Virus record (IMG/VR): IMGVR_UViG_3300032220_001580
Coordinates: 1 to 23,797 of that record
Length of the DNA: 23,797 nucleotides
Strand: one strand, 5' to 3'
Source: a virus
The position numbers and the translations under genes were made by a program. Below, piece after piece: positions 2,738 to 18,894 of this stretch. How positions within the stretch are numbered: the first letter of the stretch is position 1; the number at the start of each line of letters is the position of its first letter. The notes under the pieces are model-generated. The model ran no database searches, was not told the origin of the DNA, and saw nothing but the letters and a program-made list of their open reading frames with translations.

Positions 2738-3136
2738 ATGCAAACAATGCGAGATATATTTTCCATATGGAAACAACGATCCAACTGTGAAGCCACGTTA
2801 GGAGGAATTCCTTTAAGACTACGTATGTTAACAACTCCAGAAGAGCAGGAAAAAGGATTTATGTTTGAGCCCGAGCCGGATGATGGCTTTGGGCTTTTTT
2901 TCGTTTATCCTGAGCCAAAGGCTTTAGGATTTTGGATGCGGAACGTTCCTTTTGATTTGGATCTTGTCCCTTTAGATGAAGATATGAGAGTGTTAGGAGT
3001 TCATCATTTATTAGCAGATGATGAAAGAACGTGTAAGATTAAACGTCCTTGTCGTTATGTGTTAGAATTAGCTAATGGTTGGTGTGAAAGAAATGGAGTA
3101 GGCGTTGGAGCAAAGCTTCATATCAATGAACGATAA
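2738..3136 (+). CDS. DUF192 (UPF0127) family protein
   Basis: Encodes 132 residues. The family signature is clear: TTPEEQEKGFMF (32-43), GFGLFFVYPEP (50-60) and GFWMRNVPFDLDLVPLD (64-80), followed by a C-terminal strand region (RYVLELANGWCERNGVGVGAKL). DUF192 proteins are small beta-rich proteins of unknown biochemical function; many bacterial ones are secreted, but this copy has no signal peptide. The family also occurs in large phages. The 3' end overlaps the converging HAD gene by 14 nt. An in-frame ATG three codons in (2747) is an alternative start. Confidence 0.88.
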   Translation: MQTMRDIFSIWKQRSNCEATLGGIPLRLRMLTTPEEQEKGFMFEPEPDDGFGLFFVYPEPKALGFWMRNVPFDLDLVPLDEDMRVLGVHHLLADDERTCKIKRPCRYVLELANGWCERNGVGVGAKLHINER

Positions 3137-3677
3137 GACGAGCAATAATTTTAACGCCAGGAACTTTTAATCTTTGAACGGCGGCTATATTCTTTGGACT
3201 ATCATCAAAGAACTCAATCTCTTTATATCCAAACTTCATAGCTACCATCTTAATCCATTGAGCTTTCATTTCCGGATCGCTATTGCCGAGGGCAACAACA
3301 GGAATTTCTGGGATATCGTTTAAACGAAAGAATTCCCGAGCTGGTTCTTCACTTCCACGTGCGGTAAGAATAACTGCGCTGTCAGTTCCATGTTTTGCAA
3401 TAACAAGCTTTAATATTTTTGTTGTCCAACGTATAGCTTTAGGATCTTTTAATCCTTGAAAGTCGGAATAATCAAATTCATCGCCGGGTTCTTTTTCATA
3501 TACCGCATATTCTGCTGGATTTAAATCTAACAGCTCACCCGAAGCTTTTTTAATATGAACTTTGCTATTTGTTTTTACAAGAGTATCATCAAGATCGAAT
3601 ATACGTAATTTCTTTCCAGCTTGCAACGTTTCTTTGATGATTTCATGTATATAAGTTTTTAAAATTTGATTGCTCAT
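3123..3677 (-). CDS. HAD-superfamily phosphatase with N-terminal tag
   Basis: Encodes 184 residues. HAD motif I is FDLDDTL (27-33; nucleophile Asp28, acid/base Asp30), motif II is LTARG (104-108), a candidate motif III lysine is at 138, and motif IV is FFDDS (156-160). These are all the residues needed for a phosphohydrolase. There is no obvious cap insertion large enough to identify the substrate; nucleotide or polynucleotide 3'-end phosphatase activity is possible. Residues 5-18 (ILKTYIHEIIKETL) precede the catalytic domain and match a segment shared by several unrelated proteins here, with an (L/I)-x-E step at I14-K15-E16. It is one of four minus-strand genes in the window. Its start lies 21 nt from the divergent neck gene. 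Confidence 0.88.
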   Translation of the reverse strand: MSNQILKTYIHEIIKETLQAGKKLRIFDLDDTLVKTNSKVHIKKASGELLDLNPAEYAVYEKEPGDEFDYSDFQGLKDPKAIRWTTKILKLVIAKHGTDSAVILTARGSEEPAREFFRLNDIPEIPVVALGNSDPEMKAQWIKMVAMKFGYKEIEFFDDSPKNIAAVQRLKVPGVKIIARLIVH

Positions 3678-3684
3678 AATATCA

Positions 3685-3696
3685 TACTAATTAGTA
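3685..3696. repeat. 12-bp perfect palindrome between divergent starts
   Basis: TACTAATTAGTA is perfectly self-complementary and almost fills the 21-nt gap between the HAD gene (minus, start 3677) and the neck gene (plus, start 3699). Such a site could be an operator for a dimeric regulator or part of a bidirectional promoter. With so short a gap, both messages must have very short leaders or start inside the opposite gene. Confidence 0.5.
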
Positions 3697-3698
3697 AT

Positions 3699-4970
3699 AT
3701 GTCAACATTTAATACAACAATGTCCCCAACTCCATTTGGATTTTTTGATAGTGATACGGCATTTCAAAATGATGCAGATAAAGTCGTTACATTCGTTTTA
3801 AGAAAGCTTGGAGAAGACGTATTAAGCGTTGAATTGACAAAGAAAATGATTTGGGCTTGTTTTGAAGAGGCTACCCTTTACTTTAACGCAGTCATGATTG
3901 AATATCAAGCCAAATCAAATTTATCTTCTCTTCTTGGAACCCCTACCGGAAGTATTGACCCTGCTACTGGCAAATATAACCTCAATTTAATTAATAACTA
4001 CGTTCAACCAAACTTTGAATTCATCATAAGACAAGCAGAGCCATATGCTTCAGAAGTTGGATACGGTCAATCTCTTCAAAGTTATTCTGGTTCTATTAAA
4101 TTGGAATTAGGTCGTCAAGATTATGATATATATGAAGAATTAAAAGATGAAGCAGGCAATCGTCTTGCTGCTTATATGGGCACCGGCTCCCTTGATGTTC
4201 GTGGTAGAATGAAAATATTTGAAGTATATCATTATGCTCCAATTCAATATGTATTTAATAGCAATCTTGCATCTAATTTCGTTGCTTCAGGTCTTCCAGT
4301 AGAAAGCTACGTTCCAGATACACGCTTCTACGTTCTTCCCTTGTTTGAAGACGTATTGAGAGCTGGAATGTTAGATATGGCTTCTCGTGTAAGACGTTCT
4401 CATTATACTTATAAAATATCTGGAACTGGTATCCGAATATTCCCAACTCCAAATAATCTTATTCCATTCTTTAATGATAAACTGTGGTTAAGAGTTGGCT
4501 TTCCACCCTCGGCTGCTCCAGGCATTGTTGGTACATACTTTAGCGGCTCATTAGAGGCGTCTGGAAGCCTCCAGGATCCTGCTACACCGTCCTCCGTGTT
4601 ATTCGGTGTCAGTAACCCAGGAAACATTCCTGCGGGCTTTATAACGTATTCTTCTCTCAACCCATGGAGTAGAAATTGGATTATTCTTTATACTTTGGCG
4701 GTTGCTAAAGAACTTCTTGGACTTGTTAGAACCAAGATGAAGACAATCCCAATCCCAGGAGCAGAATTAACTCTTAACGGTGATGAACTACTTGCTCAAG
4801 GAAGAGAAGATAAAAAAGACTTATTGGTTGGTGATACGGGCATTATAACTAAACTTGATGCCTTGACCTACGATAAACTTGCAGAGCTTGAAGCAAATAG
4901 AGCAGAAAATAATATGAAACTATTGCAACATATGCCTTTCCCCCCACGCTATACCTTATTTATTGGATGA
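3699..4970 (+). CDS. Neck protein, T4 gp13-like
   Basis: Encodes 423 residues from the ATG at 3699 (MSTFNTTMSPTPFGFF); the frame extends 11 codons upstream but that part overlaps the divergent gene's start. The N-terminal pattern (residues about 25-75: DKVVTFVLRKLGEDVLSVEL, then an FEEAT...AVMIEYQAK helix) and the C-terminal pattern (LAVAKELLGLVRTKMKTIPI, then PGAELTLNGDELLAQGREDK) are those I associate with the T4-like neck protein that sits between portal and tail. It is followed, after one inserted gene, by gp14- and gp15-like genes, the T4 order. Assignment is from remembered family patterns plus gene order, so moderate confidence on the exact orthologue. Confidence 0.7.
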   Translation: MSTFNTTMSPTPFGFFDSDTAFQNDADKVVTFVLRKLGEDVLSVELTKKMIWACFEEATLYFNAVMIEYQAKSNLSSLLGTPTGSIDPATGKYNLNLINNYVQPNFEFIIRQAEPYASEVGYGQSLQSYSGSIKLELGRQDYDIYEELKDEAGNRLAAYMGTGSLDVRGRMKIFEVYHYAPIQYVFNSNLASNFVASGLPVESYVPDTRFYVLPLFEDVLRAGMLDMASRVRRSHYTYKISGTGIRIFPTPNNLIPFFNDKLWLRVGFPPSAAPGIVGTYFSGSLEASGSLQDPATPSSVLFGVSNPGNIPAGFITYSSLNPWSRNWIILYTLAVAKELLGLVRTKMKTIPIPGAELTLNGDELLAQGREDKKDLLVGDTGIITKLDALTYDKLAELEANRAENNMKLLQHMPFPPRYTLFIG

Positions 4971-5043
4971 GTAGTCAAAAGCTCCCCTCTGATCCATCCA
5001 TATATAATGATAAGTGGAACGCTACCAATTAGAAGAAGAAGAT

Positions 5044-6123
5044 ATGAACCTATTAAAAGAATATATCCGTCTTATAATCAAAGAGCAATTGGAAGAAGAT
5101 ATTGATATCCAAAAATTATCTCCTGCAATGATCGGGGTTTATTCTTTAGCCCAAGCGATGAATAGATTGATATATGAGGGCGGTGCGTTACCTGGAGCTA
5201 TTCCAATCGACATAATAGATGCTGGTCAAAAACTACAATCTGCTCCAATGGCAACAGATACAGAAAGAAAAGCTGGGGTAAGTTTTCAATCTGATCGTAA
5301 TAGTTTCAAACTTTATCTTAATCCGAATTTAAAAAAACCTGAAATGATTGGCAATGACGAAACTCATGATCTTATTCATGCTTTTACCGGACATTTAGCT
5401 AAAAAATTTGGAAAAAGAAAACAGTCTATAGAGAAAAGTGGTCAATATTCTACAACTCCTACAGAATTTAATAGAACACGGCTTGATAAAGATGCTATAA
5501 AGCTTTACAATGATGCTTTTTTAAGAGCATTTAAATTTAATCCGCCGCAAGAAGTTTTTACAAAACCTTTTAATATGGACCAATCCGATTATATAAAATG
5601 GTTTATGGATATATTTGCTGACAAAAAAGAAAAAAATGTTAGTAGTAAATTTGATTTTGATATTAAGAATTTAGGTAAGGATACGTATTGGGCGGTTTTA
5701 GGTGACGATTTTTCACCAGGCAGACTTAGTAAAAGATATTATGTTGGTTATGAAAAATTTAAAAAACCTTTTAATTTCGTTGATTACAGTCAAGCAGATG
5801 TTCCTTTTCGTGCTCCATTGCCGCCTATAAAATACAATCAATCATTTGAAGATGAAGAAGAGCTGGGCGTTACTATGATTGCTGAAATTTCGAAATATGT
5901 AACCAAAGGAAAGATTATATCCAATCCAGCAAAGATGGCAAAAAAGATAAGAACTGAATATTCAAAATCTCTTGGATTAACAAATATAGATCCAGATGAC
6001 TTTAAACATCGTTATGATACTGCCGAAGTTGAAAATACAATGAAAAGATTATTTGAGTTATATAACGTATTTGTTGATAGATATAAGAAAGCTCAATCAA
6101 ATCCGTCTGCAATAACTGTTTGA
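5044..6123 (+). CDS. Tagged protein with HDxxH motif, unknown function
   Basis: Encodes 359 residues from the ATG at 5044 (MNLLKEYIRLIIKEQLEED). A GTG at 5014 would add ten residues, but the ATG follows a purine-rich AGAAGAAGAAG stretch and puts the tag at the extreme N-terminus, as in its relatives. Residues 1-18 are the cleanest copy of the shared tag, with (L/I)-x-E at I12-K13-E14. The body contains THDLIHAFTGH with His108, Asp109, His112 and His117, a plausible metal site reminiscent of the HDxxH of Coq4-type proteins, though no downstream Glu is at the standard distance. There is no signal peptide or membrane segment. It sits between two neck genes where T4 has none, so it looks like inserted cargo. 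Family not recognised. Confidence 0.7.
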   Translation: MNLLKEYIRLIIKEQLEEDIDIQKLSPAMIGVYSLAQAMNRLIYEGGALPGAIPIDIIDAGQKLQSAPMATDTERKAGVSFQSDRNSFKLYLNPNLKKPEMIGNDETHDLIHAFTGHLAKKFGKRKQSIEKSGQYSTTPTEFNRTRLDKDAIKLYNDAFLRAFKFNPPQEVFTKPFNMDQSDYIKWFMDIFADKKEKNVSSKFDFDIKNLGKDTYWAVLGDDFSPGRLSKRYYVGYEKFKKPFNFVDYSQADVPFRAPLPPIKYNQSFEDEEELGVTMIAEISKYVTKGKIISNPAKMAKKIRTEYSKSLGLTNIDPDDFKHRYDTAEVENTMKRLFELYNVFVDRYKKAQSNPSAITV

Positions 6124-6149
6124 AATTACATTAAAATGTCAGGTTGCCC

Positions 6150-6156
6150 TATTTAT
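6150..6156 (+). promoter_or_regulatory. TATTTAT element 4 nt before a start codon
   Basis: Same heptamer and near-same position as at 2726 and 15672, directly before the gp14-like gene, which has no Shine-Dalgarno. Possible late-promoter box with a leaderless message; inference only. Confidence 0.3.
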
Positions 6157-6160
6157 CTAT

Positions 6161-6901
6161 ATGTCAAGGTTATTCATAACAAGCCGAGAGATCCAGTTTA
6201 TCAATGACATTACCAAGGAATTGGTAAAAGACGTAATTGGGCAACAGATAATTTATTATCCTATTTCTACGATGAAGACCCAAATTCATCCAATATATGA
6301 AGAAGCAATTGAGAAGATATTTGAAAATCCAATTCGTTTAGATGTTATGGCTGGACAACCCAACTGGGAAACTAAATGGAACCAATTTGGTAATGAGCAA
6401 GTCAATAAGTTTGAGTTGTTTGTTCAAGCCCGTGACCTCTTAGATAAGGGCTATAACCTTAATGAAGGCGACTTCTTCCTTTATGGCGACCAACTATATG
6501 AGTTAGTTACTTTCGTTCCTATTAACAACATATACGGTCAAGTAGAATATACAACCGGTTATAAGTTAGAAGGCAAAGTAGCACGCAAAGGTCAATTTGA
6601 TGTTAATGTCTTTAAACAAATGCTTAAAGATCAAGGCGTTAAGTATATTGATAGTAATGTTACTAAGGTTTGGCAACAACAACGTGGTCTTACGGAGAAT
6701 ATTGAAGGAGAAACGTTGGACAAACGTCAGATGCGTAATAGATTGGCAGAAGATATGGCTCCAATAGCATTAGACGAAGGCGCTCGTATTATTAATATAG
6801 ATGCGGATCCAGATCCTACACATAAACCAGAGGAAGCAAGTTCTTTTGATAATAATAGTCCAACTTACGTAGAACCAACAGATATCTATAACGAAGACTG
6901 A
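6161..6901 (+). CDS. Neck protein, T4 gp14-like
   Basis: Encodes 246 residues, close to T4 gp14 (256). The middle region reads GDFFLYGDQLYELVTFVPIN, then NIYGQVEYTTGYKLEGKVAR, which parallels the gp14 arrangement of a 'GD-hydrophobic-L-F/Y-E-I' strand pair followed by a lysine-bearing strand. The C-terminal third is acidic and probably extended (ADPDPTHKPEEASSFDNNSP, then YVEPTDIYNED); T4 gp14 also has a YVEP-containing acidic tail. In T4, gp13 and gp14 form the neck that closes the filled head and joins it to the tail. The tail terminator gene begins 12 nt after the stop, supporting the assignment. Confidence 0.75.
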   Translation: MSRLFITSREIQFINDITKELVKDVIGQQIIYYPISTMKTQIHPIYEEAIEKIFENPIRLDVMAGQPNWETKWNQFGNEQVNKFELFVQARDLLDKGYNLNEGDFFLYGDQLYELVTFVPINNIYGQVEYTTGYKLEGKVARKGQFDVNVFKQMLKDQGVKYIDSNVTKVWQQQRGLTENIEGETLDKRQMRNRLAEDMAPIALDEGARIINIDADPDPTHKPEEASSFDNNSPTYVEPTDIYNED

Positions 6902-6912
6902 TACTTAGATAT

Positions 6913-8145: not shown

Positions 8146-8228
8146 ACAGGAAATAGTAGAGCAGATGCCCCTAATTAGAAAAAGAAAAAGGCAAAAAGCT
8201 CGTATCTAAGATAAGAAGGATAAAATCA

Positions 8229-11200
8229 ATGCCGCAACAACTTTTTAATTTCCCAGGCTTTTTTGATCGTGAAATCGATCTAACCGCACGAACCGCCGGA
8301 CCTGTTGGTATACCAGCAGGTTTAATTGGCGCAGTCCAAAAAGGACCGGCGTTCGTTCCATACACACTTGGATCATTTAATGATTTCGTAACGAAGTTTG
8401 GTGGCTATGATCCAAAGTTACCAGCCCCATATGCGGCAGATAAATTTTTACAAAACCGGAATGCGCTTACATTCGTAAGAGTATTGGGAGCTGGCGCAAA
8501 TGTAACTGCTGCTGATATATCTGCAACAGATACGGCTGGCATTGTTAAAAGCGCCGGATTTAAATTAAGCGGCACGGTTGCAACAAATACAGGTGCTCGG
8601 GCGCATGGTGCGGTGCAGTTCTTGGCAGCACGCCATCAACTACAAGCAAATCAAGGCATTGGTTTCCCAATGTTTACTGATAATGATAGCTTTGCCGACG
8701 CCGCCGATGGTTCTGGATTTGTTAATCTTATTCGTGGTGTAATATTTGCAGCATCTGGTTCCCGGATTATGATCATGTCTGGTTCTGGCGAAACGTTTAA
8801 CCCACTTCTTGATGACGTTGCCGTTTATTCTACTCCAGCAGACAGTGAAGAACCATATTTCAAGATTGTAATCTCTACTTCTCTTGGTTCAACCTTTGGA
8901 AGCGCAGATGGATTAGCCGGGATTAGAATTCTATCTGCTTCCTTCAATCCAACATCCGATCTCTACTTTGCAAAGCTTCTTAACACAGATCCAGCAAAGT
9001 TTGAACAAGAACAACATTATGTTTATGCAGATTTTGCAGTAGACGATGAAGTTGCAACAGTCATTCAAAATACGGTATCTGGCGTTCTAATCGCTTCTGG
9101 TTCTGGCAATACTTCTGCTACATCAGGTTTGTCTTCAACTCGATTCATTGAGCTCTTTGGACGTTTTGACACACGTTTTAAAACGCCAAAAACACCAAGC
9201 TTCATTTCTCAACCATATGGTTCAACAGAATATAATCTATTCCACATTGAAGCCATTGATGATGGCGTATATTCAAATGATAAGATTAAAATTTCTATTC
9301 AAAATATTATTGCCTCTACCAATCCAACAAATCCATATGGTTCATTCACATTAACGGTTCGTCAATTTGGAGATACGGATTATAATCAAGCTGTTATTGA
9401 GCAATTCAATGATCTTACCCTTGATCCAGAAAGTGACAAATATATCGCCAAAGTTATTGGCGATGCAAAGGCATATTATAACTTTGACGTAGAAGATCCA
9501 AATGATCGACGCATCATTCGTTCTGGCAAATATCCAAATATGTCAAACTACATTCGTGTAGTTATGAATGAGATGGTAGAACAAAAGATGGTTCCTGGAA
9601 CCGTGCTACCATTCGGTTTCCGTGGTCCTCAACTATTAAATACAAATCCATTATTAACAGATGTAAGTTCTTCAACGGCAACAGACATTCGTCTTGCAGG
9701 AAGCGGTTCTGCTAATACGTTTGGTCTTAATGGTGCAATAGTTCCACCAATCCCATACCGTTTCAGAGTAACACGAGGCGCTGTTACTGGAAGTGGTCTT
9801 GTAACTCTACCAGGGGCACAAGAGATTACAGATGGAAGACTATATTGGGGCGTTAAGTTTGAACGTAACAACAATAACGTTCTTAATACTAATATTAACG
9901 GTGAGCTTAACAACATCATTCCATCCTTCACAAGATTTGCTGGCATTGAAAAGCTTGACGTTCTTGTGACCGGTTCTTCAACGGACGATTTTAATGATAA
10001 TAAGTTTACTCTTGCAAGAGTAGCTATTGGAACAACTGGATTTGCATTCCTTACATCATCTGTTGGAACTCAAATGAAGAATGCTGTATATGTTCGTAAT
10101 GGAGTAGTTGATCCTTCTGACTATACAGTAACCGGAAGTTGTGTTTCTGGCAGTCAACTTACTTTTGCAAGTCTTGTTCATAGCGGCACGCAACCAATCC
10201 AATTCAATAGATTTAATAACTTTGCCAAATACACAGTATTCATGTATGGTGGATTTGACGGTGTAAATCTTCTTGACCCACACGCACAAAATTTTGATGA
10301 TCGTTCTACTTCAACAGAAAATGGCATTGGCGGTTATGGCGGTGCAAATGCGAATTATGATAGCCCAGGATTTAATTTCAATCAAAATGGAGTTGGATTT
10401 GCAAATAACCAAATATATTCTTACAAAGTAGCTACAACTATTATTACAGATCCAATTGCTTCAAATATAAATCTATTGGCAATCCCAGGTCAACGTGAAC
10501 CATTTGTAACTGATTATGCTTCTGATGCCGCTGCTGGATTTGGTTTAGCTCTATATTCTATGGATATTCCAAATTACAACTCTGATGGTGATAGAATATT
10601 TGATGGAACAACAACTGGAACTGGAAGTTACATTAACGTTCAAAATACGGCAGATCAATTTGACAGCCGTGCAATAAACAATGATTTCGTTGCCGCATAT
10701 TTCCCAGATGTTGTCATGACAGATCCAGCAAGCGGGAAAAGAATTACGGTTCCAGCTTCCGTTGCTTCTCTTGCTGCAATCGCTTATAATGACAAGGTCG
10801 CTTATCCATGGTTTGCTCCAGCCGGATTTAACCGTGCTGCACTCAACTTCGTATCTCTTACAAGAACAAGAGTAAATCAGAATGAACGTGAGAAGCTATA
10901 TCAAGTAAGAATTAATCCAATCGTCAAGTTCCCAAATGAAGGTTACGTAATCTTTGCACAAAAGACGCTTAATGCTGAGAAGTCTTCTCTTGAGAGCATT
11001 AATGTTCAGCGCATGGTTATGGATGTTCAACGTCAAGTTATCGATATTGGAAATAGATTAATCTGGGAGCAACTAACTCCAGCTCTTTATCAAGATTTCG
11101 TTGCTAAAGTTTCTCCAGTATTAGCTTTGGTCCAATCCAGAGGTGGTTTGAGACAGTTCAAGGTTGTATGTGATGCAACTAATAACACAGAACTTGATCG

Positions 11201-11306
11201 TGAGAACAATAGAATGAATGCTAAGATTTACTTACTACCAGTTAAGGCAGTTGAGTTTATCGCAGTTGACTTTATTATCACCAGAGCAGGCGTTCAATTC
11301 GGCTGA
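8229..11306 (+). CDS. Tail sheath protein, first paralogue
   Basis: Encodes 1025 residues, much longer than T4 gp18 (659). The N-terminus carries the sheath signature GIPAGLIGAVQKGPAFVPYT with NDFVTKFGGYD and FVRVLGAG (residues about 27-95). The conserved C-terminal domain, about 850-1025, contains AYPWFAPAGFNR, INPIVKF, EGYVIFAQKTL, a long helix (QRMVMDVQRQVIDIGNRLIW) and an exit strand VEFIAVDFIITRAG; in sheath proteins this domain donates and receives the strands that knit neighbouring subunits. The Gly/Ser/Thr-rich middle is an expanded surface region. AAGGA at 8216-8220 gives a good ribosome binding site. The next gene is a clear paralogue. By family, six subunits per ring surround the tube and contract to drive the tube through the envelope. 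Confidence 0.95.
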   Translation: MPQQLFNFPGFFDREIDLTARTAGPVGIPAGLIGAVQKGPAFVPYTLGSFNDFVTKFGGYDPKLPAPYAADKFLQNRNALTFVRVLGAGANVTAADISATDTAGIVKSAGFKLSGTVATNTGARAHGAVQFLAARHQLQANQGIGFPMFTDNDSFADAADGSGFVNLIRGVIFAASGSRIMIMSGSGETFNPLLDDVAVYSTPADSEEPYFKIVISTSLGSTFGSADGLAGIRILSASFNPTSDLYFAKLLNTDPAKFEQEQHYVYADFAVDDEVATVIQNTVSGVLIASGSGNTSATSGLSSTRFIELFGRFDTRFKTPKTPSFISQPYGSTEYNLFHIEAIDDGVYSNDKIKISIQNIIASTNPTNPYGSFTLTVRQFGDTDYNQAVIEQFNDLTLDPESDKYIAKVIGDAKAYYNFDVEDPNDRRIIRSGKYPNMSNYIRVVMNEMVEQKMVPGTVLPFGFRGPQLLNTNPLLTDVSSSTATDIRLAGSGSANTFGLNGAIVPPIPYRFRVTRGAVTGSGLVTLPGAQEITDGRLYWGVKFERNNNNVLNTNINGELNNIIPSFTRFAGIEKLDVLVTGSSTDDFNDNKFTLARVAIGTTGFAFLTSSVGTQMKNAVYVRNGVVDPSDYTVTGSCVSGSQLTFASLVHSGTQPIQFNRFNNFAKYTVFMYGGFDGVNLLDPHAQNFDDRSTSTENGIGGYGGANANYDSPGFNFNQNGVGFANNQIYSYKVATTIITDPIASNINLLAIPGQREPFVTDYASDAAAGFGLALYSMDIPNYNSDGDRIFDGTTTGTGSYINVQNTADQFDSRAINNDFVAAYFPDVVMTDPASGKRITVPASVASLAAIAYNDKVAYPWFAPAGFNRAALNFVSLTRTRVNQNEREKLYQVRINPIVKFPNEGYVIFAQKTLNAEKSSLESINVQRMVMDVQRQVIDIGNRLIWEQLTPALYQDFVAKVSPVLALVQSRGGLRQFKVVCDATNNTELDRENNRMNAKIYLLPVKAVEFIAVDFIITRAGVQFG

Positions 11307-11355
11307 TAATAATAGTTAATACAAGAGAGTTTAATATAGAAAAGGCACAACAACA

Positions 11356-14340
11356 ATGACACAGATATCATTCAAATCAGCCGGTGTTTCAGCCAGAACA
11401 ATCGATCTAACAGGACCAACAGCAATACAACCATCCGGTATACCAGCAGGTATAATCGGCACGGCAATCGCTGGCCCAGCTTTCGTTCCTGTAACCTTAG
11501 CCACTACAAACGATTTTATAGCAACATTCGGAGAAACAACTAATGACATATATGTTGGTCCATTAGCTGTTTCTGAATGGTTAAGAAACGCTCAAGCTGC
11601 AACGTTTATTCGTGTTCTTGGTGCGGGTTCCGGCGCCGCCCGGCAGGTCAATTCTCCTCGTGGAAGGGTTGCTGGCGGTGGCTACGTAGTTGGCGAACAA
11701 CTTCCGGAAGGAGCAGGCGCTCTTGGTAACAATCCTTATGCTACTGTTGGTAATCCCCTCGGCAGAACATATTTCCTTGGCGCATTCATGAGCCAATATG
11801 AATTGCTTGGTGTAAATCCCGTTGTTAGTTCTTCGATATTTACAGATTCGGGTTTATCTGCTTCTGGTGTCCCAGTTGTTCGTGGTGTATTGTTTGCTGC
11901 CTCTGGAACTCAACTATTATTATCTTCTTCATTTGGCGGGGGCGTAGCACCAGCCGGTCACGTAACAGGCTCTGTCAATCTTCGAAACTCTCTTGAAGAA
12001 TTCGTCATGTTCGTATCCGGTCAAACCAATACGGATCCGATGTATAGAAATGTTATAACGGCTTCTTTTGATATTGATGCTCCAAATTATTTCGGAAACA
12101 TAATGAATAGAGATCCACTAAAGCTTGAACAGGCTGGTTACATGTTACAAACTGATTGGGTTATCCACCCATCATACGCAGTTGTAACTGGAGCTAACGT
12201 TATTAGCGGTTCTACCGAAGTATTGGCACTTAGAACATCTGGTTATGAAAACGTTGCATTCCTTATTACCGGTTCTCAAGCAAGAAATACTGGAACAACA
12301 ACGGCTCCAAACTATGAAAACTTTGAAGACCGTTATCGTTCACCAAAGAGTCCATGGATTATATCTCAAAAGTTCGGCGGCAAACCAGTTAATCTTTTCC
12401 GCATTCACTCTTTGGATGACGGTATATATGCAAACAATAAAGTTAAAATCTCAATTGAAAACATTGCGCCAAGCCTTTCTGACGTAAATCTTTATGGAAC
12501 ATTTGATCTTCTTGTAAGAGATTTTGCAGATAATGATAAAAAGAAAGTTGTTCTTGAAGCATATCGTGGATTATCACTTGATTCAACATCTCCAAACTAT
12601 ATTGCTCGTGTTATTGGTGATTATAATACTTTCTATAACTTTGATGCAAATGATGGAGATGCAAGATTAATCACTCTTGGAAACTATACGAATAACTCAA
12701 AATACATTCGTGTAGAGGTTGCTGATGCAGTAGATGCATCGGATGTTGATGCAACGGCTCTCCCAGTTGGTTTCCGTGGTCCAGCCCACTTAGTAACATC
12801 TGGTTCTGCTCCTCTTGCGGCGTTCAGCGCAGTTGGTCCAACTGGTTATACAGTCGCAAATCCATTCCAAAAGACTGTTCAAATCCCAGTTCCATTACGT
12901 GAGAACTTGGTTAGAGGCGAGTCTCCAAATACAGTAGCAGACAAGGGACTATATTGGGGCGTTCAATTTGAACGTAAAATAAACGCTCTTCAACCAAATG
13001 CAAGCACAATTCGTGAAACCAGCGTTGAAAGCTTTGCAGCTTACTTCCCAGACTTCCAACAAGACAGCGTTAACTTCGTAGTCATGGACAATGAAGGAGT
13101 TCTTGATACGGCAGCAAACGGAATTCTTGATGCTGACCGTTTCAATAACAACGGCTTCTCTCTTGAGAATGTTGAGATCGTAATAAACTCAACGACTGGA
13201 TTGGCTGATACTACGCAAGTAGTAGATTGGAGCTATGTAAGAAATGGAGCGATAACTCCAACTGTTACAACAAGAGCATTGACAGTAGCAGATCTTTCTG
13301 ACCCATCAACACGACAACTTGCCAAGTTCAATCTTTTCATCCAAGGCGGATTTGATGGTGTTAATATCTTCAACTATGATGAACGTTATTTGACAAACAA
13401 AGCAATCAATGAAGAACTTGATTACACTTCAAGACTTCTACAATTGGGACCAACTGTAATGGCATACAATACTGCACTTGATTTGATAGCTGATGCAACT
13501 GAAATTGATGTTCAAGCATTCATCGTTCCTGGTATTCGTAATCCAGTTATTACGGACAGAGCTTTGCAAATCGCTGAAGGTAGATTTGATGCCATCTATA
13601 TCATGGATATAGAAAAATATGATACAGTTAATATGCTTATCACAAGCAGTAATCAGGTTGAGTCTGTAAGATATACTGCTCTTAATTTCCGTGATCGTGG
13701 CATTAACAGCTCCTTTGGCGCTTGTTACTTCCCAGACGTAATAATGCAAGACGGCATCTCTAATACTCTTCGTGAAGTTCCATCTTCCGTTGTTGCTCTT
13801 GGAGCTTATTCTTTCAATGACTCGGTAGCATTCCCATGGTTTGCTCCAGCCGGCTTTGCAAGAGGCGCTCTTGCAACAACGGAGCGTTCAACTCTACAAC
13901 TATCCAGAACAAACATGGATGATCTCTATGAAGTTGATATCAATCCAATCGTATCCTTTGCAGGATCTGAAGGATTGGTAATCTGGGGTCAGAAGACAAT
14001 GTATGCACAACAATCTGCTCTTGATCGTGTAAACGTTCGTCGTCTACTTCTCTCCATCCGTAGACAAGTTCGTCAAGTTTCGAACAGAATTCTCTTCGAA
14101 CAAACTCTACCAGAGACGCTCGCACGTTTCTCACAGTTGGTTAACCCAATCCTACAAAGAGTTCAAAATCAACGTGGTGTTGATCGTTTCCTTGTTCGTA
14201 TCGATACATCTACAACAACTGAAGCAGACTTTGAGAACAAGACGATCCGTGGTAAGATTTACTTACAACCAACACGCACCCTCGAGTTCTTGTCTGTAGA
14301 CTTCGTAATCAACAACCCAAGCAACTTCGGTCAAGGTTGA
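11356..14340 (+). CDS. Tail sheath protein, second paralogue
   Basis: Encodes 994 residues and parallels the preceding sheath along its whole length: N-terminus SGIPAGIIGTAIAGPAFVPV with NDFIATFGE and FIRVLGAG; middle SPWIISQKFGGKPVNLFRIH followed by DDGIYANNKVKISIENI; GLYWGVQFERK; and C-terminus AFPWFAPAGF, INPIVSF, EGLVIWGQKTM, a helix (VRRLLLSIRRQVRQVSNRIL) and a final strand LEFLSVDFVINN. The two are well diverged, so the duplication is old and both copies look intact, without stops or frameshifts. It starts 49 nt after the first sheath with no terminator between, so the two are probably cotranscribed. Both may be built into one sheath or used in different regions of the tail. Confidence 0.95.
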   Translation: MTQISFKSAGVSARTIDLTGPTAIQPSGIPAGIIGTAIAGPAFVPVTLATTNDFIATFGETTNDIYVGPLAVSEWLRNAQAATFIRVLGAGSGAARQVNSPRGRVAGGGYVVGEQLPEGAGALGNNPYATVGNPLGRTYFLGAFMSQYELLGVNPVVSSSIFTDSGLSASGVPVVRGVLFAASGTQLLLSSSFGGGVAPAGHVTGSVNLRNSLEEFVMFVSGQTNTDPMYRNVITASFDIDAPNYFGNIMNRDPLKLEQAGYMLQTDWVIHPSYAVVTGANVISGSTEVLALRTSGYENVAFLITGSQARNTGTTTAPNYENFEDRYRSPKSPWIISQKFGGKPVNLFRIHSLDDGIYANNKVKISIENIAPSLSDVNLYGTFDLLVRDFADNDKKKVVLEAYRGLSLDSTSPNYIARVIGDYNTFYNFDANDGDARLITLGNYTNNSKYIRVEVADAVDASDVDATALPVGFRGPAHLVTSGSAPLAAFSAVGPTGYTVANPFQKTVQIPVPLRENLVRGESPNTVADKGLYWGVQFERKINALQPNASTIRETSVESFAAYFPDFQQDSVNFVVMDNEGVLDTAANGILDADRFNNNGFSLENVEIVINSTTGLADTTQVVDWSYVRNGAITPTVTTRALTVADLSDPSTRQLAKFNLFIQGGFDGVNIFNYDERYLTNKAINEELDYTSRLLQLGPTVMAYNTALDLIADATEIDVQAFIVPGIRNPVITDRALQIAEGRFDAIYIMDIEKYDTVNMLITSSNQVESVRYTALNFRDRGINSSFGACYFPDVIMQDGISNTLREVPSSVVALGAYSFNDSVAFPWFAPAGFARGALATTERSTLQLSRTNMDDLYEVDINPIVSFAGSEGLVIWGQKTMYAQQSALDRVNVRRLLLSIRRQVRQVSNRILFEQTLPETLARFSQLVNPILQRVQNQRGVDRFLVRIDTSTTTEADFENKTIRGKIYLQPTRTLEFLSVDFVINNPSNFGQG

Positions 14341-14364
14341 TATATTATCTAATAGGCATATAAA

Positions 14365-15069
14365 ATGAAAATTACATTAGAACAACTTAAACGTTTAATT
14401 CGTGAAGCTACTGAAGACGTTGACCGTGTTAAACCATATTCGGCGGCTGAATTATTGAAAGCTTTAGAAGATGCTCCTGACGAAGCTTTTGATGATGAAC
14501 CAAAAGAAGAAGGTGAAGAAGAAGACGTTGAAGATTATCATGATCCACGTCCTGGTGATTTTGCCCGCAGAAGACTTGAAGAGGGTGCCATAAGACTTGT
14601 TTATACAAATCATGGTATTCTTACAGAAGAACATGTTCGTGAACTAAAAGAATACGGATATGAAATGGAAGAATGTGGTTCTTGGGAAGTTGAAGGACCA
14701 AGCATGAGAACTCATCATGATGAGCCGGTAGCTAAAGTTGTTATTCTCGGTCCAGGACAAGAAGATGTGATTGAAGAAGGTGACACATCATCTCCTTCTG
14801 TTGGCGGTTCTGGACCTGGAACACAAGTAGCCGTAGGAATGCCAAGTGGTCCCGGAGGAGCTCCTTCACCATCTGGCGCTGCTGTGGTAGCAGAACGCTT
14901 TAATCGTCATGCAGAAGCTTTATTAGAAGCCTGGTTGGAAGAAGAACTTCATGGCGACCAAGATAAGCTTGATTTAGACGATGATGGTGAGATTGAAGCA
15001 AGTGATCTTGCGATGTTGCGCCATGGATTAACTGACAAACAAGTTGGCGAAGACAGAAAACGTAGCTGA
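14365..15069 (+). CDS. Tagged acidic protein with an EF-hand-type loop
   Basis: Encodes 234 residues. Residues 3-18 (ITLEQLKRLIREATED) are a copy of the shared N-terminal segment, with (L/I)-x-E at I12-R13-E14. An acidic stretch follows (40-58), then a possible small alpha/beta unit (75-130), then a Gly/Pro/Ser-rich linker (140-172) and a C-terminal helical region. Residues 203-214, DLDDDGEIEASD, form a canonical 12-residue calcium-binding loop (Asp203, Asp205, Asp207, Gly208, Ile210, Asp214), as in EF-hand and dockerin modules; only one loop is present. It lies between sheath and tube genes, so it is made with the tail, yet the tag suggests another destination. Family not recognised. Confidence 0.75.
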   Translation: MKITLEQLKRLIREATEDVDRVKPYSAAELLKALEDAPDEAFDDEPKEEGEEEDVEDYHDPRPGDFARRRLEEGAIRLVYTNHGILTEEHVRELKEYGYEMEECGSWEVEGPSMRTHHDEPVAKVVILGPGQEDVIEEGDTSSPSVGGSGPGTQVAVGMPSGPGGAPSPSGAAVVAERFNRHAEALLEAWLEEELHGDQDKLDLDDDGEIEASDLAMLRHGLTDKQVGEDRKRS

Positions 15070-15095
15070 AGTTTAAGAAAATCAGATTTCAAATA

Positions 15096-15102
15096 TATTT
15101 AT
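15096..15102 (+). promoter_or_regulatory. TATTTAT element upstream of the tail tube gene
   Basis: TATTTAT 24 nt before the tube ATG leaves room for a short leader carrying AAAAGGG (15111-15117), a fair ribosome binding site. If the element is a late-promoter box this would be a dedicated promoter for a highly expressed gene, which also has its own terminator. Confidence 0.3.
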
Positions 15103-15126
15103 TATTAAGAAAAAGGGTAAAAGATT

Positions 15127-15615
15127 ATGGCCGACACACTATCAGTAACAGATATGTTACCAACAAAGTTTGAACCACTTATTAAAAGACGGTTCGTATT
15201 TGCTATTGAAGGAGTAGATGCATTCTTAATCAAGTCTGCTGCACGTCCACAAATGACATTTGATGAAGTTACTATTCCATGGATCAATAGCACACGTTAC
15301 CTCGCTGGTAAGGGCACATGGGGAGAAATGAGCGTTACGCTTTATGACCCAATTGCTCCATCTGGTGCTCAACAAGTAATGGAATGGATCCGCACGTGCT
15401 TTGAAAGCGTTTCTGGTCGTGCAGGTTATGCCGATTTCTATAAGCGTGACATTCAAATCAAGATGCTTGATCCTGTTGGAACGGTAGTTCAGCTTTGGGA
15501 CGTTAAGGGTGCTTGGTGTAAATCTGCCAATTTCGGTGAAATGGCTTATGATGGTAACGACCCAGCAGATATTCAGCTTTCTATTCGCTTCGATAACTGC
15601 GTTCTTCAATTCTGA
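15127..15615 (+). CDS. Tail tube protein, T4 gp19-like
   Basis: Encodes 162 residues, almost the length of T4 gp19 (163). Recognisable family features are an N-terminal strand (RRFVFAIEGVDAFLIKSAAR), PQMTFDEVTIPWIN, then YLAGKGTWGEMSVTLYDP, a helix (SGAQQVMEWIRTCFE), YKRDIQIKMLDPVG and the closing KGAWCKSANFGEMAYDGND with IQLSIRFDNCVLQF. Hexamers stack to form the rigid inner tube that the sheath drives through the envelope. Only one tube gene is seen, although there are two sheath genes. It is followed by a terminator. Confidence 0.95.
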   Translation: MADTLSVTDMLPTKFEPLIKRRFVFAIEGVDAFLIKSAARPQMTFDEVTIPWINSTRYLAGKGTWGEMSVTLYDPIAPSGAQQVMEWIRTCFESVSGRAGYADFYKRDIQIKMLDPVGTVVQLWDVKGAWCKSANFGEMAYDGNDPADIQLSIRFDNCVLQF

Positions 15616-15641
15616 TTACAAATACAGTTATCCTTTCGTAG

Positions 15642-15671
15642 AAAACCTGGGAGAGTTCTCCTGGGTTTTTC
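15642..15671 (+). terminator. Intrinsic terminator after the tail tube gene
   Basis: AAACCTGGGAG (15643-15653) and CTCCTGGGTTT (15658-15668) pair over 11 positions with two G-U pairs around an AGTT loop, followed by TTTTT to 15670. It ends the sheath-to-tube transcription unit 27 nt after the tube stop. Confidence 0.85.
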
Positions 15672-15678
15672 TATTTAT
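15672..15678 (+). promoter_or_regulatory. TATTTAT element between terminator and next gene
   Basis: Directly after the terminator and 5 nt before the ATG at 15684. A promoter is expected here because the terminator separates the next gene from the upstream unit. Third instance of the heptamer 4-5 nt from a start codon that lacks a ribosome binding site. Confidence 0.35.
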
Positions 15679-15683
15679 AGCAT

Positions 15684-16043
15684 ATGGATATGATAGAACA
15701 ATCAATGAAACAATATGAGCGTATTCGTAAAGGATATCCTCGGTTATTCACAGACGCTCAAAAGATTGCAAAGCTCATTATAAAAGCCTCTAAAAAGGAT
15801 TTTGAGCCCATTAAAACTTGGCGCTACCTACAGAGGTTGAAGCAAATAGAAAGCCGTAAAAAGGGTTATAGCCCGGTTCCTGATATGGTTATTAACATCT
15901 TCTTTGATGCGAAGTTAACTCGTGATGAAGAACGTGCGAAGATAAAACAATATTATTTAGACGTTATAAGAGCTGGACAAAAAGATATTAACGATATGTC
16001 TTTAATAAAAGAATATATTCATCATATCTTAAAAGAACTTTGA
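15684..16043 (+). CDS. Small basic protein with the shared tag at its C-terminus
   Basis: Encodes 119 residues, helical and basic (for example MKQYERIRKGYPRLF and KAKLIIKASKKDF-like stretches around residues 8-40). The final 15 residues, MSLIKEYIHHILKEL (105-119), match the N-terminal segment of other proteins in the window, with (L/I)-x-E at L116-K117-E118, one residue from the end. The same tag at the opposite terminus argues that it is a transferable element and not part of a fold. The ATG two codons later (15690) is an alternative start. The family is not recognised. A strong terminator separates it from the tube gene, and the gp26-like gene follows after 74 nt. Confidence 0.7.
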   Translation: MDMIEQSMKQYERIRKGYPRLFTDAQKIAKLIIKASKKDFEPIKTWRYLQRLKQIESRKKGYSPVPDMVINIFFDAKLTRDEERAKIKQYYLDVIRAGQKDINDMSLIKEYIHHILKEL

Positions 16044-16104
16044 TTAGATAAACTGATTTATACAAACTAAGCTGTCATTATACAATTGAAGAGTTATATC
16101 AATT

Positions 16105-16110
16105 GGAGGA
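16105..16110 (+). promoter_or_regulatory. Strong Shine-Dalgarno GGAGGA
   Basis: GGAGGA lies 7 nt before the ATG at 16118 and selects it over the in-frame TTG at 16103. Confidence 0.8.
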
Positions 16111-16117
16111 AGAAATA

Positions 16118-17008
16118 ATGTCAGAAACAGATAATAGAGAGTTGCATAATGCGATTTTAGCAGCTCAAATGGCTTCACAAAACGTTGGTGCAACCGGTGG
16201 AGAAGGTCAACCAATATCCGCTCAACAATATGCTCGTCAAGAACTCGGCGTTGAGATTCCAGTAGATGCCGTTCCTTTACCATCAAAAGGTAGAGTTTAT
16301 CCACAAGGACATCCATTATGTGGAGCTGAGTCAGTTGAATATCGTGCAATGACTGCAAAAGAAGAAGATATTCTAATGTCTCAGGCTCTTATTAAGCGTG
16401 GAACCGTTATAACAGAACTTATCAAATCTTGTCTTATCAATAGAGATATAGATGTGCAAAGCCTTTTATCTGGGGATAGAAACGCTTTAATGATTGCAAT
16501 ACGTGCTACCGGTTATGGTAACATATATGAACCTCAATATTCCTGTCCATCATGTGAATTTAAAAATGATTTACAGATTGATCTTAATCAACTTGGAATT
16601 AAGCCTTTAACATTGGAACCAGTTGTTCCTGCTGGTAATCTTTTCAATTTCAACTTGCCTGTATCCAAGAAGACAATAACATTTAAGTTTCTAACCGGTA
16701 GAGAAGAAGAAGAGATTGTTAATGAGACTGAGATTAGAAAGAAAAAGGGTCTATTAAATTCTAATCTTATCACCTCTCGACTTTTACGTTCAATTGTTGC
16801 AATTGATGGTAACGATAACAAGAGCCTTGTCTCACGTTTCGTTCAATATATGCCAGCTCGTGATTCATTACTTCTTCGTGAACATATCGATACACATGAA
16901 CCCGGTGTAGATATGAAAGTTGAATTCCGTTGTTCAAGTTGCGATCACTTCGAGGAGGTTGCCCTTCCGATGGGTCCGACGTTTTTTTGGCCTAACTTCA
17001 AGCGATAA
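16118..17008 (+). CDS. Baseplate/hub protein, T4 gp26-like, with zinc ribbon
   Basis: Encodes 296 residues ending at TAA 17006-17008. After a flexible N-terminus, residues about 45-65 carry VPLPSKGRVYP; then VEYRAMTAKEEDILMSQALI and ELIKSCLINRDIDVQSLL form the helical core, and ALMIAIRATGYG precedes CPSC (Cys143, Cys146). A second pair CSSC (Cys272, Cys275) near the C-terminus completes a probable four-cysteine zinc site. This pattern is that of the T4 base plate protein family (gp26 type), needed for hub assembly. The short C-terminal end, PMGPTFFWPNFKR, is read through a run of seven T. A second frame opens there and continues for 89 codons, so a longer product may also be made. Confidence 0.8.
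   Translation: MSETDNRELHNAILAAQMASQNVGATGGEGQPISAQQYARQELGVEIPVDAVPLPSKGRVYPQGHPLCGAESVEYRAMTAKEEDILMSQALIKRGTVITELIKSCLINRDIDVQSLLSGDRNALMIAIRATGYGNIYEPQYSCPSCEFKNDLQIDLNQLGIKPLTLEPVVPAGNLFNFNLPVSKKTITFKFLTGREEEEIVNETEIRKKKGLLNSNLITSRLLRSIVAIDGNDNKSLVSRFVQYMPARDSLLLREHIDTHEPGVDMKVEFRCSSCDHFEEVALPMGPTFFWPNFKR
16982..16988 (+). promoter_or_regulatory. Candidate programmed frameshift site (T7 run)
   Basis: Codons ACG TTT TTT TGG contain seven T in a row. The P-site tRNA-Phe on UUU at 16985-16987 can re-pair perfectly after a +1 move (16986-16988) or a -2 move (16983-16985); either puts the ribosome into the frame of the following extension, 20 nt before the zero-frame stop. A GAGGAGG sequence at 16952-16958 could act as an internal stimulator, though 23 nt away is far for the known examples. 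Confidence 0.45.
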
Positions 17009-17258
17009 AGAAGCGGTTCTCCTTGAGCCATTCTTCTTATTAGGCTATTATTTCGGGATGGATTGGAATACATATTACAACTATCCAATCGCCTATAAGA
17101 GATGGCTCATTAAGAGAATAGAAAAAGAAATAAGTAAAGCTCACGAATCTCAGAATGATATCCCGAGTAAAGCGCCACATCACAATACCCCAGATATAAG
17201 ATCCCTTACTGGGAAAACAAGATCACAAGTTCCGCATAATTTACAACGCTTTACTTAG
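16989..17258 (+). CDS. Out-of-frame C-terminal extension or separate small helical protein
   Basis: Entered by frameshift at the T7 run, this gives 89 residues (GLTSSDKEAVLLEPFFLLGY and onward) fused to residue 290 of the gp26-like protein, 379 residues in all. No ATG, GTG or TTG lies in this frame between the T run and the ATG at 17058, yet the protein-like sequence (LLEPFFLLGYYFGMDWNTYY, then NYPIAYKRWLIKRIEKEI) begins well before that ATG. Starting at 17058 would cut off the first helix and give 66 residues. The arrangement resembles the frameshifted tail-assembly chaperones found upstream of tape measure genes. The alternative is one miscounted T in the assembly, which would make a single long gene. 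Confidence 0.55.
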   Translation, partial: GLTSSDKEAVLLEPFFLLGYYFGMDWNTYYNYPIAYKRWLIKRIEKEISKAHESQNDIPSKAPHHNTPDIRSLTGKTRSQVPHNLQRFT

Positions 17259-17303
17259 ATCAAACAAAACTATACCTGTGCCTCATAGACCAAATCTTAA
17301 CAA

Positions 17304-17849
17304 TCAAAAACGTATCTTAAGAAGACCCAGATGATGTAATGCCATATAGGCTCCATCTGGGTTTCTTATTTTTCCATCAAATAAAAGATTTTCTAAGTCT
17401 TCCATATCTACAACGGCAACTTCTAAAAACTCATTATCATCTAAGTCTAAATCTTTAGCTACCTTCTTGCATCCAGTAGATATATACACGTGTCGCAGAC
17501 CAGATGAATATGGGGAATAGCTTCGGCTTGATAAGAATTCTATATTGCCTTCATATCCAGTCTCTTCTAATAGTTCTCTCTCAGCGGCTCTGGAAGGCTT
17601 TTCTCCAGGGTCTATCATGCCACCAGGTAGTTCGAACTCTACTCGCTCTATGCCTGGCCTAAACTGTTTTACGAGCACTATTTGACCATCTTCAGTCATA
17701 GGAAAGATATTGACGCTATCTGGGGTTCTATCAATGAAAGAAGTATAAGGTTTGCCATTAGGCAACAAGAAGGTTTTTTGAATGACCTTTTTCTTGTAGC
17801 CGGTTGGTTTGTGTGAGAAGGTATAAAACTTTTCTTTTAACTTTTTCAT
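17304..17849 (-). CDS. NUDIX hydrolase, ADP-ribose pyrophosphatase-like
   Basis: Encodes 181 residues from the ATG at 17849 (MKKLKEKFYTFSHKP). A longer frame reaches 17921 but would overlap the upstream gene by 71 nt, whereas this ATG lies one base after that gene's stop, a typical coupled start. The NUDIX box is complete: Gly77-x5-Glu83-x7-Arg91-Glu92-Leu-Leu-Glu95-Glu96-x-Gly98. The N-terminal beta domain with VNIFPMTEDGQIVLVKQFRP and the RNPDGAYMALHHLGL C-terminus resemble the ADP-ribose pyrophosphatase subgroup. By family it would hydrolyse a nucleoside diphosphate linked to another group, perhaps ADP-ribose released from NAD breakdown. It carries no tag, unlike its operon partner. Confidence 0.9.
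   Translation of the reverse strand: MKKLKEKFYTFSHKPTGYKKKVIQKTFLLPNGKPYTSFIDRTPDSVNIFPMTEDGQIVLVKQFRPGIERVEFELPGGMIDPGEKPSRAAERELLEETGYEGNIEFLSSRSYSPYSSGLRHVYISTGCKKVAKDLDLDDNEFLEVAVVDMEDLENLLFDGKIRNPDGAYMALHHLGLLKIRF
17323..17370 (+). terminator. Possible + strand terminator inside the converging NUDIX gene
   Basis: ACCCAGATG (17325-17333) and CATCTGGGT (17354-17362) form a 9-bp stem, extended by two weaker pairs, with a 20-nt loop, followed on the + strand by TTTCTTATTTTT. It could end transcription of the gp26-like unit. It overlaps the 3' coding end of the minus-strand NUDIX gene, so coding constraint could explain part of it. The long loop lowers confidence. Confidence 0.4.
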
Positions 17850-17850
17850 T

Positions 17851-18438
17851 TCAGTCTTTTCTGGAACGTTTGCCAGAGCATTTCCATTTTTTTCTGGAAA
17901 GTCTGAGGGGACTGTTAGCATCTTTAGCGGCTGAAGGATGATCTTTCATTTGACCGTAAGAGCGAGCACAGTAGCTATCTCCCTTTGATGTTCCTGGAGC
18001 AATGGAATAACCTTTAGCTCCGTAACGAACTGTTTTCTTATTCTTGCCAGAACCGACAACCTTTTTATATTTCTTTGGACCTCTATAGCCCTTTTCTTCT
18101 TGAACCCCTTCATTGATTCCTTCAAAATCTAATCCGCCATAGTAATCTACAACAAATTCCGTTGCATCACCAATAGCATTATCTATTTTATCATTAAATT
18201 CTTGTTGATTTTTAACGATACCAGCGGCTTTTTGTATTTCTTCAAAAGGAATATAAATATTGACGTATTTGGTTATAAGGCTTTCAACTTTTTGAGTATT
18301 ATTTTCTTCTGCTGCCGTTTCTATTTCATCCACGGAGTCAATATAGTTCATTATTAGCCGAGTTAATGGATTTAAGCTTTCAATTTCATCATTGATGTTT
18401 TCAAGAAGATAAGATAATAGTTTTTTTAAGTTTTTCAT
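17851..18438 (-). CDS. Tagged protein with Cys/Lys-rich C-terminal domain
   Basis: Encodes 195 residues from the ATG at 18438, with GGAG seven bases upstream; the TTG at 18450 is an unlikely start. Residues 1-17 (MKNLKKLLSYLLENIND) are the most divergent copy of the shared segment, with L11-L12-E13. Residues about 18-110 are acidic and helical. The C-terminal 65 residues are very basic: KKTVRYGAKGYSIAPGTSKG, then DSYCARSYGQMKDHP and LRLSRKKWKCSGKRSRKD. I have a memory of this 'GDSYCARS ... LSRKKWKCSG' pattern recurring in proteins of large phages, but cannot name the family or a function. A basic tail after an acidic body would suit a DNA-binding internal head protein. It is second in a three-gene minus-strand operon. 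Confidence 0.75.
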   Translation of the reverse strand: MKNLKKLLSYLLENINDEIESLNPLTRLIMNYIDSVDEIETAAEENNTQKVESLITKYVNIYIPFEEIQKAAGIVKNQQEFNDKIDNAIGDATEFVVDYYGGLDFEGINEGVQEEKGYRGPKKYKKVVGSGKNKKTVRYGAKGYSIAPGTSKGDSYCARSYGQMKDHPSAAKDANSPLRLSRKKWKCSGKRSRKD

Positions 18439-18450
18439 TTTAAGCTCCAA

Positions 18451-18810: not shown

Positions 18811-18894
18811 TATATTGCCTCAATACCTTAAAATTTTAGATCCGATTGTAATTATGAGAAGACCGGATAAACACTACAAGTTAAATAGTAAAAC

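Follow-up and report, generated by a model that had tools for sequence, protein, structure and literature searches.

An N-terminal peptide on unrelated small proteins as a probable capsid-loading propeptide in a clade of T4-like giant phages

The 23,797-base virus fragment IMGVR_UViG_3300032220_001580, here called the window over its whole length, carries neck and tail genes of a T4-like myovirus, and three of its proteins open with a short glutamate-ending peptide that recurs at the N-termini of many small proteins in related giant phages. This peptide, the tag, is probably a capsid-loading propeptide of the clade, cut by the phages' own gp21-type protease: it is N-terminal, spread over unrelated bodies and selected at the protein level, the protease gene is present in relatives, and its core matches the maturation site of their capsid proteins. 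By the proposed mechanism the tag would form a short helix through which a protein enters the prohead core during head assembly, and would end in the recognition site of the protease; cutting after the tag glutamate, as in the capsid protein, would release mature cargo within the head, which would then be ejected along with the DNA. The earlier note on this DNA had described a transferable capsid-loading tag, in five copies, working from either end of a protein. The transferable N-terminal tag, the gp21-type protease and the capsid-type site are borne out, whereas use from either end and two of the listed copies are not.

Relatives were collected by scans with the head-tail connector (38 related viral loci) and the tail tube (at least 599, of which 80 were kept). 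The named phages from the connector scan, Microcystis phage Mel-JY01 and four Flavobacterium immuto records, are distant, as is an uncultured 484-kb record, all below 60% identity. Fourteen related records (29.7-320 kb, whole or nearly so), Mel-JY01, 40 kb of LR756508 and the window make up a first set of 2,700 proteins, which fall into 1,757 families when compared without the protein ends; 80 loci around the capsid gene supplied a second set of 410 proteins without similarity to the 2,700. Genes were called by a simple script for the longest open reading frame (ORF), preferring the first ATG, rather than by a gene finder, and families are single-linkage BLAST clusters of trimmed bodies. The near-identical contigs G016 and G017 count twice at the protein level and once at the family level, and one 20-kb piece of G025 stands outside all counts. 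The tag profile spans 16 residues and was trained, for each genome, on the tagged N-termini of the other genomes from families absent from the genome tested, with a threshold of 8; its seed pattern demanded the glutamate and a lysine or arginine before it. The version applied to outgroups and to the second set omits the window families alone and has one LR756508 gene among its seeds.

The tag consensus is M-K-[IL]-T-x-x-[QE]-L-[RK]-x-[IL]-[IL]-[KR]-E followed by [EAQTSC]. N-terminal matches to the profile number 120 among the 2,700 proteins (92 of 1,757 families), where 8.4 are expected from shuffled N-termini and 7.6 from the rate in protein bodies, and 31 among the 410 proteins of the second set (28 of 306 families), where the expectations are 2.2 and 1.2, so that the genome-wide recurrence anticipated in the earlier note is found at about 14-fold over shuffled N-termini in both sets. 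In the 1,257 distinct proteins of the first loci, the raw pattern [IL][IL][KR]E has 39 starts within residues 11-15, where 2.6 would be expected for a bin of five residues. The strongest genome, G008, has 28 matches in a 278-kb record (2.4 expected), LR756508, an uncultured record, has 14 tagged proteins among 78 scanned in 75 kb, and the named phages read are poor in tags, Mel-JY01 having 4 among 236. Tagged proteins are small: 3 of 255 with at least 500 residues score, and 117 of 2,445 shorter ones. A chance likeness among common amphipathic N-terminal helices, which would suit the background scores of two of the five reported copies, is left with practically no probability, since the excess refutes it for the set as a whole and outgroups give at most one match each: T4 1 of 224 proteins in 150 kb (expected 0.2 shuffled, 0.55 from bodies) and, in stretches of 50 kb each, RM378 1 of 55, P-HM1 0 of 60 and immuto 1 of 52. 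At C-termini of the first set there is no excess (9 matches against 8.8 shuffled), and working from either end is therefore rejected as a general rule. The second, smaller set has 3 C-terminal matches against 0.8, so that rare use of that end may occur. The bodies behind the tag are unrelated, as had been claimed, with a mean column identity of 6% across 75 tagged proteins from 74 body families (HAD counted twice), and the sole column at 90% or above is Glu14, a glutamate that the selecting profile itself favoured.

The core of the tag is of the same kind as the site at which, by alignment with T4, the capsid protein would be cut in maturation. In an alignment of capsid proteins (a slash marks the cut) the T4 gp23 sequence FLTE/AEIGG, which we take to be cut after Glu65, lies opposite LLRE/S, ILKE/N, VLKE/S, ALRE/S and MLNE/S of the clade, where LLKE also occurs, and the residue after the capsid-site glutamate in the clade is S, A, T, Q or N. 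All 38 distinct capsid sites found have L/I-x-E, with K before the glutamate in 16, R in 9, N in 8, Q in 3, M in 1 and S in 1, a count to which 45 of the 80 loci contributed, capsid proteins with an N-terminus unfit for the search pattern having been dropped; the capsid protein of RM378 gave no clear alignment at the cut-site position. Lysine or arginine thus precedes the glutamate in 25 of 38, as in the tag, where T4 gp23 has threonine. Because tag cores such as IIKE and LIRE match these capsid sites, the tag core is the clade's own form of the site, lysine or arginine included, and the (L/I)-x-E step singled out in the earlier note proves to be of the same type as the phages' own maturation site. 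T4 gp21 is reported to cut after L/I-x-E (PMC9026906).

Conservation within the tag is highest at the glutamate: in 93 homolog pairs from 24 families it is identical in 87%, the highest of all tag positions, a count less circular than the profile-based ones, yet from a query anchored on the glutamate-ending motif. The position after it is identical in 59% and varied in kind (C, E, A, Y, F, S, T, Q), the residue two before it is mostly I, V or L, and the lysine or arginine directly before it is identical in 67%. A tag that targets the prohead and stays uncut, its glutamate kept for helix packing against the core, would need such a well-kept lysine or arginine for binding, and cleavage is itself a deduction; this alternative is nevertheless improbable, as the residue after the glutamate varies while the glutamate stays and the same core occupies the capsid site aligned with that of T4.

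The gp21-like protease and the scaffold gene for which the earlier note had proposed a check both have candidates in relatives, that for the scaffold lying ahead of the capsid gene and being identified by that position only. Peptidase_S77, the gp21-type protease, is found in 21 of 31 related records (13 of 15 and 8 of 16, several misses being fragments) and in 0 of 1 for the window itself, a 23.8-kb fragment. Among close relatives it is present in G015 and G017-G020 and absent from the equally close G016, a 29.7-kb fragment; in G017-G020 its gene lies about 9-13 kb upstream of the neck gene. Peptidase_S78, the HK97-type enzyme, was searched for in the window fragment alone and is absent there (0 of 1). 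In G019 the portal gene (PHROG E=4.4e-73) is followed by a 287-residue gene, the protease gene (28816-29421; 1.5e-48), a small tagged gene, a 161-residue gene, a long scaffold-position gene and the capsid protein (2e-73). Across 30 distinct protease loci the better-scoring of the next two genes, which gives two chances per locus, bears the tag in 25, and of ten such tagged followers looked up none was a seed of the scoring profile. Nine of 13 proteases themselves have an IIKE-, LIKE-, TIKE- or QVKE-type segment near the N-terminus.

This neighbourhood bears on the idea that the tag helix serves assembly or docking at the tail, the neck, a membrane or an intracellular compartment and not at the head. 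The helix is short and charged, and tagged genes do lie amid tail and neck genes in the window, G003 and LR756508; the protease followers, the tag-like segments of the proteases, the co-occurrence of the tag with a peptide from the scaffold's tail (below) and the untagged state of the sheath, tube, tape-measure and baseplate proteins of the window leave docking elsewhere somewhat less probable even than an uncut tag.

Selection on the tag is at the level of protein, not DNA, with the same residue encoded by a different codon in 122 of 352 comparisons in the G003 array and in 144 of 244 in G008. Conservation of a signal in DNA or RNA where genes begin (a promoter, a translation signal or a recombination hot spot), with the peptide as its by-product, would fit the position of tags at gene starts, often in tandem arrays (G003 50640-54659). 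It is strongly disfavoured, with very little probability left, by the frequent synonymous codon differences and by the upstream DNA, where a TATAAAT-like site precedes 1 of 120 tagged genes against 79 of 2,515 others and the best 7-mer reaches an uncorrected p of 1.5e-4.

Several points weigh against a cut, capsid-loading propeptide. Core binding, cutting, packaging and ejection are all inferred from sequence. Since the seed pattern demanded the glutamate and the lysine or arginine, profile-based conservation of both is partly circular; the homolog pairs share the anchoring, and each protease locus had its two chances. The capsid site of immuto is IVSE/A, and that of the G007-like branch is MLNE, though the tags of that genome keep lysine or arginine. 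Five of the 30 proteases have no tagged follower (G002, Mel-JY01, L288, L291, L299), with G002 having a similar tagged gene (187655-188146) about 600 bases from its scaffold-position gene instead. Tagged genes extend beyond the head module; in G008 the head genes lie at 84-98 kb and the matches run from 2.5 to 266 kb. They share no late-promoter motif, by the TATAAAT-like counts above. The tag is not constant on one body, being absent from 4 of 17 HAD rows, the second set has its small C-terminal surplus, and the clade profile misses the T4 internal proteins, whose ipI-III N-termini differ (the single T4 protein that scores is one of 224).

A second peptide, RWxxLAGI, is a different C-terminal peptide of the clade, distinct from the C-terminal tag described earlier. 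The gene directly upstream of the capsid gene closes with it in strict form in 35 of 43 distinct termini and in lax form in the other 8, with none having neither; that gene is taken as scaffold by position only, and in G019, the one tested, it has no PHROGs scaffold match. Related endings occur on the scaffold-position genes of immuto and Mel-JY01, looser ones in LR756508 and RM378, and gp22 of T4 and of P-HM1 end otherwise. Outside the scaffold family RWxxLAGI is at the C-terminus of six families and the N-terminus of three, with six matches elsewhere in 520,358 residues, and three of the six families that end with it also start with the tag (p=0.0025). RWxxLAGI has the probable role of marking further core or cargo proteins, by way of the partner that the scaffold's tail binds. 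In G002 (198231-205099) at least three genes open with RWxxLAG[LV]-type peptides, the scaffold-tail peptide being there at the N-terminus. A conserved KWxxTGLLxG in the propeptide of the clade's capsid proteins, at about residues 25-40, resembles RWxxLAGI, by coincidence or through a shared partner. Three RWxxLAGI-type genes lie at 17074-20480 in G017, whose connector is identical to that of the window, between the 129-residue gene and the HAD gene, and the window lacks all three. G017 also has an extra HDxxH paralog at 13739-15151 that the window lacks (compare window 2738-3677 and 4970-5044). These differences are strain-level gain or loss of candidate cargo.

From the two peptides together a packing scheme with two addresses may be drawn, the N-terminal cut-site helix and a copy of the scaffold end, RWxxLAGI, on either end of a protein, with some proteins bearing both. 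Its probability is evenly balanced, and the same holds for what it would entail, that T4-like giant phages of a large and mostly uncultured clade fill their heads with many different small proteins, a dozen or more in some genomes, and that their virion is a general protein-delivery vehicle for the likes of superoxide dismutase, phosphatases and anti-restriction proteins.

The nearest known system is the capsid targeting sequence (CTS) of T4, on IPI-III and Alt, likewise a short N-terminal peptide on unrelated bodies with an L/I-x-E end and a gp21-type protease to cut it. IPI-III and Alt are the T4 core proteins reported to lose small N-terminal peptides (PMC9958956), and the first 10 residues of IPIII are reported to suffice for targeting (PMC9026906). 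The tag differs in sequence and usually in length, with 14 residues to the glutamate against 10 in ipII and ipIII, in having lysine or arginine where T4 has alanine before the glutamate, and in number, with the 28 matches of the single G008 record. As the clade profile misses the T4 internal proteins, the function is CTS-like, with descent from the T4 CTS unsupported. In LR756508 (L237 12697-18576) several successive genes behind the capsid gene have a shorter leader, M[KR]xKxLLxE, of about T4 CTS length, and long-tag genes lie further on. DarB of P1 also has an N-terminal capsid targeting signal, on a cargo that counters restriction, and its N-terminal 30 residues send a reporter into the capsid according to PMC9024508, where no consensus by BLAST is reported for the Dar N-termini; in the clade a clear consensus spans 92 families. 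The giant phages SPN3US and phiKZ have N-terminal propeptides cut by gp245 and gp175, described as removed after glutamate by a diverged gp21 relative (PMC5694885, PMC9026906, PMC10052503). Several of those in SPN3US are given as longer than 100 residues, with only that of gp45 as short as the T4 CTS (PMC5694885), and the phiKZ site is given as S/A-x-E (PMC9026906), against a leader of about 14 residues and I/L-x-E here. With respect to gp22-position scaffolds, the clade's protein encoded just ahead of the capsid gene ends in RWxxLAGI, unlike gp22 of T4 and P-HM1, and the peptide is in addition shared with the further families given above. Literature found by tag strings and topic terms, over titles and abstract starts among the matches listed and with subscription journals mostly outside, does not describe the tag, and a composite tag peptide run against a phage collection met LR756508 as its sole record, at E=5, short peptides having little power in such a search.

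In the window 3 of 23 ORFs pass the threshold at the N-terminus, with 0.40 expected from shuffled sequence and no body match in 5,807 positions (Table 1). All five peptides that the earlier note had listed are present in the sequence; the EF-hand-like (34.5), HDxxH (17.3) and HAD (8.5) copies score as tags, and the scores of the Cys/Lys-rich protein (0.7) and the 119-residue protein (-0.2) leave these two unsupported as the same tag.

Table 1. Tag copies, cousin peptides and neighbouring genes in the window
Feature	Positions	Strand	Details
HAD-type phosphatase N-terminal tag MSNQILKTYIHEIIKE, residues 5-18 as reported	3630..3677	-	gene 3123-3677; score 8.5; predicted cut after Glu16
Ad2-type head-tail connector, neck gene adjoining HAD gene	3699..4970	+	PHROG head-tail adaptor Ad2 E=1.4e-6, short stretch
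HDxxH protein N-terminal tag MNLLKEYIRLIIKE	5044..5085	+	gene 5044-6123 or from GTG 5014; score 17.3; predicted cut after Glu14
234-residue EF-hand-like protein N-terminal tag MKITLEQLKRLIRE	14365..14406	+	gene 14365-15069; score 34.5; predicted cut after Glu14
Tail tube gene, tagged gene before, 119-residue gene behind	15127..15615	+	PHROG tail tube E=9.8e-28
119-residue protein C-terminal segment LIKEYIHHILKEL, residues 107-119	16002..16040	+	gene 15684-16043; score -0.2
Cys/Lys-rich protein N-terminus MKNLKKLLSYLLE	18400..18438	-	gene 17851-18438; score 0.7; cousin motif

The HAD protein matches polynucleotide kinase in PHROG (E=2.9e-10) and acid phosphatase in Pfam, and 13 of the 17 listed homolog rows, its own included, have a glutamate-ending tag (IIKE, IVKE, LIKE, ILRE, LINE, FIHE), those without being L011, L012, L017 and G027. 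For the HDxxH protein the longest ORF opens with the GTG at 5014 and the tag with the ATG at 5044; six of seven aligned sequences, the window's among them, have the tag, the seventh having no N-terminal part. Its body has no Pfam or PHROG match, and no fold is assigned to it, the AlphaFold mean predicted local distance difference test score being 62 (below 50 over tag residues 1-17) and the best Foldseek match against PDB having E=0.6. The EF-hand-like protein has the top score of the set (34.5), under leave-out profiles made separately for each genome; its earlier 'EF-hand' label found no Pfam match at E<=0.001. A tag-bearing ORF lies directly upstream of a tagless homolog of this protein in L018 and L051, and in L042, L047 and L048 a tagless homolog has no tag-bearing neighbour among the ORFs listed. 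The L051 ORF at 8624-8869, directly upstream of such a homolog, encodes an 81-residue protein with the tag motif at both ends, perhaps an adaptor, and is unexplained.

The C-terminal segment of the 119-residue protein is retained in its homologs in an xLKEYIxxI-like form, at or near the C-terminus in L009, L045, L047, L048 and L049, as in the window, and internally, with another domain behind it, in L040, L042 and L046. Because it is internal ahead of a further domain in relatives, the C-terminal copy of the window may be a junction relic, the N-terminal tag or leader of a downstream domain that the window has lost or never had. L042 (10558-12084) encodes a 508-residue fusion of the 119-residue domain with two copies of a domain without PHROG match, the first led by LLKEYIKTILE and the second by LIKEYISLIIE (L046 and L040 hold one such domain), and the protease could cut this fusion into pieces. 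The short form occurs widely enough for the C-terminal segment possibly to serve a function by itself. The Cys/Lys-rich protein is rejected as a member by its score and kept as a cousin; its homologs share the cousin motif LLxYLLSE, FLLNE or FLLHE.

Candidate cargo was surveyed in 75 proteins from 74 of the 92 tagged families, four further representatives lying across piece borders and 14, mostly low-scoring, being left out. Pfam recognized nine families, each once: superoxide dismutase (E=1.1e-14, G007 183502-184317), PAP2 (E=7.8e-9, by motif most likely a 245-residue protein of G008), EF-hand, acid phosphatase (the HAD protein of the window), DUF5661 and four helix-turn-helix models. Among the 12 that PHROGs recognized are two HAD proteins of polynucleotide-kinase type and one Lar-like protein of restriction alleviation, the latter by motif most likely from an 85-residue gene of LR756508 with zinc-finger-like cysteines. 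The majority of bodies have no match of known function. Superoxide dismutase, PAP2, HAD and Lar-like anti-restriction proteins would suit early action in a new host, and T4-type internal proteins are described as diverse defence proteins with the CTS as their sole shared part (PMC3012670).

The window as a whole encodes the Ad2-type connector, two sheath-sized paralogs, the tail tube, a T4 baseplate-family protein and a NUDIX gene. The paralogs (8229-11306 and 11356-14340) lie in tandem, each about 1,000 residues long and sheath-like at its ends; the first alone was scanned and matched tail sheath, and G003 has a similar pair. By eye, the 406-residue protein at 607-1827 starts like a lipoprotein, repeats CDNLDNDCDG-type motifs and contains a VWA-like DTSGSM motif, a combination unusual for a phage.

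If the tag is what it appears to be, it would turn many nameless small genes of giant phages into predictions of which proteins travel in the head and enter the cell at infection, the moment at which host defences first act. Tags would let injected proteins be listed from sequence alone, and the question of what such a phage injects besides its DNA would become answerable in that way. It would also suggest that T4-style protein packing, known from a few cargo proteins, has been elaborated separately, or much enlarged, in a different branch.

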